Positions 14,785-59,793 of a DNA stretch of 64,000 nucleotides are shown here, in pieces. Under the pieces are notes generated by a model. It saw nothing but the letters and a program-made list of their open reading frames with translations. It did no database searches and had not been told where the DNA came from. The stretch spans positions 2,957,868-3,021,867 of the forward strand of contig NZ_CP076718.1 in assembly GCF_011682235.2 (NCBI RefSeq), given 5' to 3'. The position numbers were made by a program, and so were the translations under genes. Source of the DNA: Rhodocaloribacter litoris (GTDB lineage Bacteria; Bacteroidota; Rhodothermia; Rhodothermales; ISCAR-4553). The stretch's first letter is position 1. Every line of letters starts with the position of its first letter.

Positions 14785-15063
14785 TATATAGCGTTGGTCC
14801 ATGTTATTGAGGGCGTCATGGCGCAGCGCGCTGTAGCCGCACCCTTCACGGGTGCGCCCCCTGGCCCACAGGAGAGCCCGGGCCGACGGGGCACGCAACG
14901 CGTCCAGACATGCGGGCAGCCCGGGCTAAAGCCCGCGGCTACGTGTGGGCAGCCCGGGTTAACGCCTCCGGCTACAAGCAACAGCGCTGTAGCCGCACCC
15001 TTCACGGGTGCGCCCCCTGGTCCACAGGAGAGCCCGGGCTAAAGCCCGCGGCTACGTGTGGGC
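14785..15063 (+). repeat. REP/BIME-like cluster (five GTAG-headed hairpins)
   Basis: Non-coding cluster right after the barrel gene. Type-1 units (14833-14856 and 14989-15012) read GTAG followed by a perfect 7-bp hairpin CGCACCC-TTCAC-GGGTGCG. Type-2 units on the opposite strand (14918-14942 and 15031-15055, plus a diverged one at 14951-14975) end in CTAC, i.e. GTAG on the minus strand, with a hairpin built from CGGGC-TAAA-GCCCG extended by AGCC/CGGCT. The 55-nt blocks 14828-14882 and 14984-15038 are identical except one base; the 33-nt blocks 14918-14950 and 15031-15063 are identical. GTAG plus a hairpin in inverted arrangement is the signature of REP/BIME elements linked to RAYT (TnpA-REP) transposases. 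No transposase is in this window. Confidence 0.7.
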
Positions 15064-15133
15064 CGTTCGCTCGGGGCAGCCATGCCCTGCATGCCCCTGA
15101 CCTCTGCTAGACCATCGAGACAACGGGCGAGCG

Positions 15134-57746: not shown

Positions 57747-58071
57747 GGGGCCGGGCGGCAGGTTCGTGCTGACGGCAAAGGGACGACGCGGTCGGGGCGC
57801 CGTGTGCCTTTAATCAAGGGCCTGGGCCGGACTTTGTCAATAACGGCCTTCAAAAGCCCGGCCGGTGCCGGCCGGTGTAGCGGAGGTCCTGTTATTGAGG
57901 TCATGACAGCCCTTAGCGAACCGGACCCACCGCGTAGCCGCGGATCTGGACGCGTTGCGCGTCCCGCCGGCCCGGACTCTCCGGTGGGCCAGGGGGCGCA
58001 CCCGTGAAGGGTGCGGCTACATCGCGCTGCACAAGGACGCCTTCAATAGCATGGACCAACGCTATATGCCG
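57747..58071. other. Intergenic region between the recombinase-like gene and the E2 gene
   Basis: 325 nt. The right part (57933-58066) is a second REP/BIME-like copy; the left part has CCGGCCGG-rich inverted sequences (around 57859-57880) and a TTATTGAGGTCATGAC stretch near 57893 that resembles the TATTGAGG flank of the 14.8-kb copy. No gene is seen. Confidence 0.5.
57933..58066 (-). repeat. Second REP/BIME-like copy (homologue of the 14.8-kb cluster)
   Basis: Read on the minus strand this copy matches the beginning of the 14785-14935 region: TATAGCGTTGGTCCATG, TATTGA, GGCGTC, then the type-1 REP with GTAG and the perfect hairpin CGCACCC/GGGTGCG (57997-58020), then a shared tail through CGCAACGCGTCCAGA and a truncated type-2 unit (GTAGCCGCGG at 57933-57942). 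As at the first site, the copy begins within a few nucleotides after a stop codon (the E2 gene) and has the same orientation relative to that gene. Confidence 0.7.
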
Positions 58072-59793
58072 TCAGAGCTCCATGTTCGGGTCGAACGATT
58101 CGAGGACCGAGACGACCTTTTGCAGGAAGGAAGCCCCCATCGCGCCGTCGATGATGCGGTGGTCGTAGGAGAGCGACAGGTACATCATGTGACGCACGGC
58201 GATGATGTCCCCCAGGTCCGGGTCTTCGATGACGACCGGGCGCTTCTTGATGGCGCCCGTCGCCAGGATGGCCACCTGCGGCTGGTTGATGATGGGCGTG
58301 CCCATGATGGAGCCGAGCGAGCCGATGTTGGTGACGGTGAACGTTCCACCCTGCAGCTCGTCCGGCTGGAGCTGCTTGTTCCGGGCGCGCTCGGCCAGGT
58401 CGGCGGCGGCGCGGGCCAGCCCGGCGATATTCAGGTGGCCGGCGTTGCGGATGACCGGCGCCAGCAACCCGGTCTTGCCGATGGCCACGGCGATGCCGAT
58501 GTGGTAGTCGTACTTGACGAGGATGCGTTTCTCCTCGACCGAGGCGTTGAGCAGCGGGTGCTCGCGCAGGGCTTCCACGGCGGCCTTCACGAAGAAAGGG
58601 GTGAAGGTGAGCTTGACGCCCTCACGCCGCTCGAAAGCCTCTTTCTGCCGCTCGCGCAGCCGGACCAGGTTGGTCACGTCGGCCTCGGCGAAGGAGGTGA
58701 CGTGGGCCGAGGTCGCCTTCGAGCGGACCATGTGCTCGGCGATGATCTGCCGCATGCGGTCCATCTCGATGATCTCGACCCGTCCCGATGCCTCGCCCGC
58801 GGCGACGGGAGCCGGGCGCTTCGGGGGTGCAGGCGGGCGTTCCGGGGCCTCGGCCGGGCGTTCCGGGGCCTCGGCCGGGCGCTGTTTCCGCTGCTCCAGG
58901 TAGGCCAGCACGTCTTGCTTCGTCACCCGTCCCTCGCGGCCGGAGCCGGGGATGGAGGCCAGTTCCTGCATCGTGAGGCCTTCCTTCTCGGCGATGGAGC
59001 GCACGAGCGGCGAGAAGAAGCGTCCGCCGGCCTCGCGCGGGATCGGCTTGCCGGCTTCCACGGGAGCCTGTGCGGCGCCGTCGCCCGAGGCCGCGACGTC
59101 GTGCGCCGGGGCCGGCTCGGACGGTGCGGCCTTCGAGGTTGCCTCCGGGGCCGGCGGCCGCCCGGGGGACGGTGCGGTGGCCGCCTCCGTGGCGATGACG
59201 GCCAGCTTCGTGCCCACCTCCACCGTTTCACCCTCGCCGACGAGGATTTCTTTGAGCACGCCCGAGGCGGGGCTGGGGACCTCGGTGTCCACCTTGTCGG
59301 TGCCGATCTCGAGCAGGGGTTCGTCGGCTTCCACCCGGTCTCCGGGCCGTTTGTGCCATTCGAGCACCGTTCCCTCGGTGATGCTCTCGCCCATCTTGGG
59401 CATGACCACCTCCACCTCGTCGCCGCCCGGCGGGGCGGGGGCTGCGGCCCGTTCCGGTGGGGCGGCTGCCGCCTCCGCCTCCGGCTCCGGTTCCGGTGCT
59501 GCCTCGGGCTCCGGCGCCGTGGGCGCGGCTTCCTCCTCACCGCCGGCCTCCACGTCGGTCTCGAGGAGGGCGATGACCGTGCCCACCTCCACCGTTTCGC
59601 CCTCGCCGACGAGGATTTCTTTGAGCACGCCCGAGGCGGGGCTGGGGACCTCGGTGTCCACCTTGTCGGTGCCGATCTCGAGCAGGGGTTCGTCGGCTTC
59701 CACCCGGTCTCCGGGCCGTTTGTGCCATTCGAGCACCGTTCCCTCGGTGATGCTCTCGCCCATCTTGGGCATCGTGACCTCGACCTTCGCCAT
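58072..59793 (-). CDS. sucB: 2-oxoglutarate (2-oxoacid) dehydrogenase E2, dihydrolipoyl acyltransferase
   Basis: 573-residue E2 core of a 2-oxoacid dehydrogenase complex, transferring the acyl group from lipoate to CoA. Two tandem lipoyl domains carry LEIGTDKVDTEVPSPASG with lipoyl-lysines Lys44 and Lys167, joined by Ala/Pro/Glu-rich hinges. A peripheral subunit-binding domain follows (FSPLVRSIAEKEGL...GREGRVTKQDVLAYL), a second hinge with repeated PAEAPER units, and the catalytic domain with TSAHVTSFAEADVTN and the active-site His in SLSYDHRIIDGAMG. The tandem lipoyl domains and catalytic motif fit 2-oxoglutarate or branched-chain/pyruvate E2; the substrate is not certain. I start at MAKVEV; an ATG 12 nt upstream is possible. 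The DNA of the two lipoyl domains is almost identical. Confidence 0.85.
   Translation of the reverse strand: MAKVEVTMPKMGESITEGTVLEWHKRPGDRVEADEPLLEIGTDKVDTEVPSPASGVLKEILVGEGETVEVGTVIALLETDVEAGGEEEAAPTAPEPEAAPEPEPEAEAAAAPPERAAAPAPPGGDEVEVVMPKMGESITEGTVLEWHKRPGDRVEADEPLLEIGTDKVDTEVPSPASGVLKEILVGEGETVEVGTKLAVIATEAATAPSPGRPPAPEATSKAAPSEPAPAHDVAASGDGAAQAPVEAGKPIPREAGGRFFSPLVRSIAEKEGLTMQELASIPGSGREGRVTKQDVLAYLEQRKQRPAEAPERPAEAPERPPAPPKRPAPVAAGEASGRVEIIEMDRMRQIIAEHMVRSKATSAHVTSFAEADVTNLVRLRERQKEAFERREGVKLTFTPFFVKAAVEALREHPLLNASVEEKRILVKYDYHIGIAVAIGKTGLLAPVIRNAGHLNIAGLARAAADLAERARNKQLQPDELQGGTFTVTNIGSLGSIMGTPIINQPQVAILATGAIKKRPVVIEDPDLGDIIAVRHMMYLSLSYDHRIIDGAMGASFLQKVVSVLESFDPNMEL
59209..59403 (-). 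repeat. Lipoyl-domain repeat, downstream copy
   Basis: 195 nt identical to 59578-59772 except for one base (A versus G at the 59230/59599 position), offset exactly 369 nt (123 codons). It encodes most of the second lipoyl domain of the E2 protein. Confidence 0.95.
59578..59772 (-). repeat. Lipoyl-domain repeat, upstream copy
   Basis: Partner of 59209-59403; encodes most of the first lipoyl domain. Near-perfect identity including third codon positions points to recent duplication or gene conversion. Confidence 0.95.

Follow-up and report, generated by a model that had tools for sequence, protein, structure and literature searches.

The genome of Rhodocaloribacter litoris appears to carry a composite in which two kinds of mobile repeat, both non-autonomous, are combined, and we put the probability of this reading at roughly 0.7. 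Head-to-head REP dimers, presumably acquired horizontally and by now orphaned, would have been captured by a MITE of IS630 type. The hairpins in question are REPs by their architecture, and most of their copies, including the cluster found in the window (the whole 64,000-nt stretch of DNA analyzed here), lie within this MITE. One parasite thus seems to be spread by another, the REPs being the cargo of the MITE.

The hairpins and their copies in the genome

The window cluster is built from hairpins of two types on opposite strands, each headed by GTAG, as the original prediction had described them. Type 1, GTAGCCGCACCCTTCACGGGTGCG, occupies the + strand at 14833-14856 and 14989-15012, and type 2, GTAGCCGCGGGCTTTAGCCCGGGCT, the - strand at 14918-14942 and 15031-15055; the first copy of each was recognized from sequence, repeat comparison, genome scan and fold, and the second from repeat comparison and genome scan. 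Relative to shuffled sequence the two hairpins fold with z-scores of -3.4 and -2.5. The 67-nt pair at 14989-15055, a head-to-head dimer of type 1 (+) followed by type 2 (-) with GTAG at both outer ends, folds more strongly than the single hairpins (z -4.4 against shuffles). Predicted pairing between the two arms of the dimer gave a mixed outcome, and we therefore do not claim it as one long hairpin.

Direct copies of 55 and 33 nt with no or one mismatch had been described within the cluster. They were recovered, the pair at 14828/14984 with a length of 56 nt and one mismatch, the pair at 14918/15031 identical over 33 nt. Two further proposals held in part. A diverged type-2 copy at 14951-14975 (- strand) is present as a sequence relic, identified by repeat comparison, but its fold does not differ significantly from shuffled sequence (z 0.09) and it does not stand as a hairpin; similarly, the proposed interval, 14785-15063, contains the repeats but is too short, the complete element extending from 14789 to 15109. 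This element is placed between convergent stop codons, at distances of 11 and about 21 nt.

The genome is a single contig of 4.50 Mb. It contains 72 type-1 sites, of which 43 are exact, and 47-52 type-2 sites depending on the pattern (up to three mismatches), so that neither unit is confined to a few copies. Patterns read backward as controls had no match in the genome, which excludes chance as the source of the repeats. Close pairs of type 1 and type 2 number 31 and measure 65-70 nt, with a length of exactly 67 nt in 23 of them and a spacer of variable sequence. These dimers carry GTAG at both outer ends and some are arranged in tandem, the largest arrays comprising five dimers inside one MITE at genome 2318096-2318621. 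According to gene calls made by a simple home-made script, in which gene starts are uncertain, 8 of the 61 clusters reach into a called gene, 4 of them over more than 30 bp (the coding share of the window is 83%). About 19 REP loci lack a MITE flank above the shuffled 99% threshold, and REP dimers therefore also exist alone. Two seemingly standalone loci, 1367048 and 3555217, are MITE remnants.

The hairpins are thus GTAG-headed palindromes of 20-40 nt in many copies, they form regularly spaced inverted pairs as well as tandem arrays, and they are extragenic and, where standalone, avoid divergent promoters. The suggestion of a REP/BIME-like cluster is borne out by the GTAG heads, the 67-nt head-to-head heterodimers, the tandem arrays and the intergenic placement, at more than 100 sites. 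GTAG REPs, as defined by Di Nocera (2013; PMC3733652), and the related BIMEs and REPINs (PMC3733652; Bertels & Rainey 2011, PMC3116915) share with the present repeats the GTAG head, the short stem-loop, head-to-head heterodimers with variable spacers of similar length, tandem groups, and sites between unidirectional or convergent genes. Unlike in those systems, there is no intact RAYT here and most copies reside inside an element with terminal inverted repeats.

A MITE around the hairpins

Alignment of the flanks showed most clusters to be bordered by TATAGCGTTGGTCCATGCTATTGAAGGC at one end and by GCCCTCAATAACCATGACCTCCGCTATA at the opposite one, two sequences that form an imperfect inverted repeat. 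The MITE so delimited has imperfect inverted ends of about 26 bp, TAGCGTTGGTCCATG.../...CATGACCTCCGCTA, and a canonical length of about 189 bp, and the pattern for both ends matched 56 times in the genome at up to three mismatches, with no match for the control. At least 25 two-ended copies were obtained by script, of 171-526 bp and many of them of 189 bp. TA stands on both sides of 20 of the 25, as a putative target duplication, and two copies have matching flanks other than TA (GA/GA and AA/AA).

The element thus combines terminal inverted repeats with short length, non-coding sequence and multiple copies, as does an IS630-type MITE. RUP, Correia/NEMIS and Nezha are IS630-derived MITEs with TA duplication; like them, the present element is short and non-coding, with terminal inverted repeats of about 26 bp, TA flanks and IS630 in the same genome, while its core, a REP dimer, and its inner terminal repeat, which matches no IS630 of the genome, set it apart. 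Ten canonical copies have a mean identity of 88%. The family is therefore not very young, and, given a divergence of about 12% between copies, the MITE may be inactive today. A search of plasmids with the MITE consensus returned no match.

The window cluster lies in a whole copy of 321 bp on the + strand (14789-15109; TAGCG...TGCTA), established by a match to the terminal repeat pattern and by comparison with the 25 copies, and found in the genome scan at genome position 2972656. Its left terminal inverted repeat, TAGCGTTGGTCCATGTTATTGAGGGC (14789-14814, +), agrees exactly with the IUPAC pattern. The right one, GCCCTGCATGCCCCTGACCTCTGCTA (15084-15109, -), was recognized by comparison with other right ends, and is so decayed that it escaped the three-mismatch scan. 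The flanks are TA at 14787-14788 and, on the right, GA rather than TA at 15110-15111.

A second MITE in the window, of 187 bp, occupies the - strand at 57878-58064, flanked by TA on the left and CA on the right. It contains a type-1 REP (57997-58020, -; genome scan and element comparison) and a type-3 hairpin (57934-57964, +; element comparison and pair analysis). Type 3 differs from type 2 by an additional stem-loop, CGGGACGCGCAACGCGTCC, and in MITEs it usually stands in place of type 2, the pair then measuring 87 nt. Several copies (genome 677288, 1710508 and 4330846) have this stem-loop tandemly duplicated, with a pair length of 106. The left arm and its distance to the first type-1 unit are the same in almost every MITE copy, and this constant junction argues for a single capture rather than for repeated insertions.

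An element of 94 bp at genome 1826240-1826333 bears both MITE ends, lacks the hairpins and is an internal-deletion derivative. We considered an autonomous composite at 1824503-1826333, where ends lie 1.8 kb apart, and rejected it: the left part is a truncated MITE, the right part is the 94-bp element just described, a separate unit, and inspection by eye of the ORFs between these ends revealed no transposase. Other MITE copies (genome 944787, 2328964, 3834978, 4091929 and 4305270) lie inside a different inverted-repeat element, whose ends are TTGACARGGGTAGGT... and which itself apparently sits within further repeats; such nested small elements are common to two families of the order.

Transposase genes and relatives in other genomes

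REP elements are assumed to need a RAYT, and the original prediction had envisaged mobilization by RAYT and a RAYT gene flanked by the same GTAG hairpins. Neither finds support in this genome. A profile search with Pfam Y1_Tnp (PF01797) found nothing, and the NCBIfam RAYT model NF047646 detected, below its cut-off, one frame-split gene at genome 1691612-1692230 on the - strand, the fragments in its two frames having E-values of 4e-8 and 1e-10. By these two profile models there is no intact RAYT in the genome, and the genome-wide hairpin scans placed no type 1 or type 2 near the one RAYT-family gene. The REPs that are left without an intact RAYT are therefore probably orphans that persist as passengers.

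The frame of this gene breaks at a perfect 40-nt tandem duplication. Since this is the sole lesion detected, the gene may have been active recently and may have been an agent acting on these REPs. Beside the break, and within the gene, lies a perfect, GTAG-headed palindrome of 28 nt, GTAGGGGCGGTTCGCGAACCGCCCCTAC, which encodes GGSRTAPT. An origin of the dispersed repeats from this palindrome was rejected, as it occupies a single genome site and differs from them in sequence.

IS630 elements fall into three groups in this genome, one of which consists of five copies, at least 99.9% identical, with ends TATAGCGCTAC.../...GTAGCGCTATA and TA flanks. One of these near-identical copies sits exactly at the TA bordering the MITE that ends at genome 1710659. 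With the five-copy group the MITE has only TATAGCG in common, and its inner ends match none of the IS630 elements of the genome. The mobilizer of the MITE is likely to be of IS630 type.

None of 98 order-level relatives has type 2, and among 394 members of the phylum it is abundant in none and gave only single near-matches, in three genomes. Y1_Tnp genes are present in 29 of the 98 relatives, from which the repeats are absent. One genome from another family of the order has a single MITE copy, hairpins included, nested in another repeat. Type 1 recurs exactly in Planctomycetota, Nitrospirae, Deltaproteobacteria, Ignavibacteriae, Chloroflexi, Armatimonadetes and Bacteroidetes, in MAGs for which binning errors are possible; a type-2-like arm that ends in GGCTAC often comes next. 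Of eight type-1-bearing foreign genomes tested, six have Y1_Tnp genes. The Ignavibacteriae MAG encodes a RAYT that passes the curated cut-off and has GTAGCCGCAACCCTCAGGTTGCG and CGCAGGCTAAAGACCTGCGGCTAC in its flanks, repeats of the same two-arm design. Its flanking GTAGCCGC hairpins give this RAYT the likeness of a REPtron, unlike the RAYT-family gene of the present genome, which is broken and unflanked. REPtrons have been lost in some species (Di Nocera 2013, PMC3733652). The occurrence of a 24-nt REP in about seven phyla suggests either broad horizontal spread or a strong constraint on the hairpin. We infer that the REPs entered this lineage by a horizontal route, and the genome would in turn support such entry for a REP class that recurs in several phyla.

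Proposed origin of the composite

In the course of events that we propose, GTAG-tagged head-to-head REP dimers, with relatives beside RAYT genes in other phyla, would have entered the lineage and multiplied. A MITE of IS630 (Tc1/mariner) type, flanked by TA, would have taken up one dimer as its core, and from that point the dimer would have been spread by an IS630-type transposase that acted at the ends of the MITE. Tandem duplication would have grown arrays within individual MITEs, the window copy included. We infer that the REPs came first and capture by the MITE later, because type 1 is the more widely distributed and because its junction with the MITE left arm is constant. That residence in an IS630-type MITE has allowed a DDE transposase to keep RAYT-less REP dimers mobile is a more tentative proposition, to which we would give somewhat less than an even chance.

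The repeats could instead be an ordinary REP/BIME system: the RAYT-family gene, prior to its break, would have moved the dimers, and their insertion into MITEs would have been incidental. The REP architecture and the standalone dimers outside MITEs would be expected under such a history, and a RAYT-family gene does exist, damaged as far as detected by one perfect duplication. However, type 1 and type 2 do not flank that gene, its own palindrome is different and not dispersed, and the constant junction in the MITEs points to one capture; we regard this history as unlikely. We find it hardly credible that the hairpins are native to the MITE, their GTAG heads coincidental and the standalone copies MITE debris. 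The majority of copies do lie in MITEs, and two apparent exceptions proved to be remnants, but the loci without a MITE flank, the exact type-1 matches in other phyla, often adjoining type-2-like arms, the shared design of RAYT-flanking repeats elsewhere, and the 94-bp derivative with ends and no hairpins all speak against it.

The repeats might also be kept for a host function, as bidirectional terminators, in protection of mRNA 3' ends or as intergenic gyrase sites. Consistent with this are the position of the window element, close to two convergent stop codons, and the distribution over divergent gaps, where 0 of 14 standalone REPs are found as against 11 of 33 MITEs (Fisher p 0.02). Purifying selection against promoter insertions accounts for the same bias, however, divergent gaps do hold MITE copies, and there is no demonstrated conservation at orthologous sites, so that we consider retention for host function very improbable. 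The contrast itself fits two separate histories of insertion or selection for standalone dimers and MITEs.

Capture of REP dimers by a MITE, the reading we prefer, has its nearest precedent in the dimers of Anabaena variabilis, and the present case varies a known arrangement. According to PMC3733652, GTAG-15 dimers of that species lie inside TATAGGAnT...AnTCCTATA palindromes; where the paper deals with this family, the palindrome is described as a target, unlinked palindromes were not found, and the term MITE is not applied. In both genomes REP dimers are enclosed in a longer inverted repeat that starts with TATAG and ends with CTATA, whereas other ends, TA flanks, free dimers and a hairpin-less end-only copy distinguish the elements reported here from those described in that account. 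By analogy, the Anabaena dimers may represent the same phenomenon, unrecognized. If this is true, the carriage of orphan REPs by TATAG-ended MITEs would be a solution that has recurred independently, and such MITEs would perhaps move the REPs between lineages. The genome would constitute a natural test of RAYT loss, in which a REP persists and appears to spread on another transposon.

Elsewhere in the window, a direct repeat of 237 bp (59181-59417 and 59550-59786), 92% identical between its copies, lies within a predicted gene.
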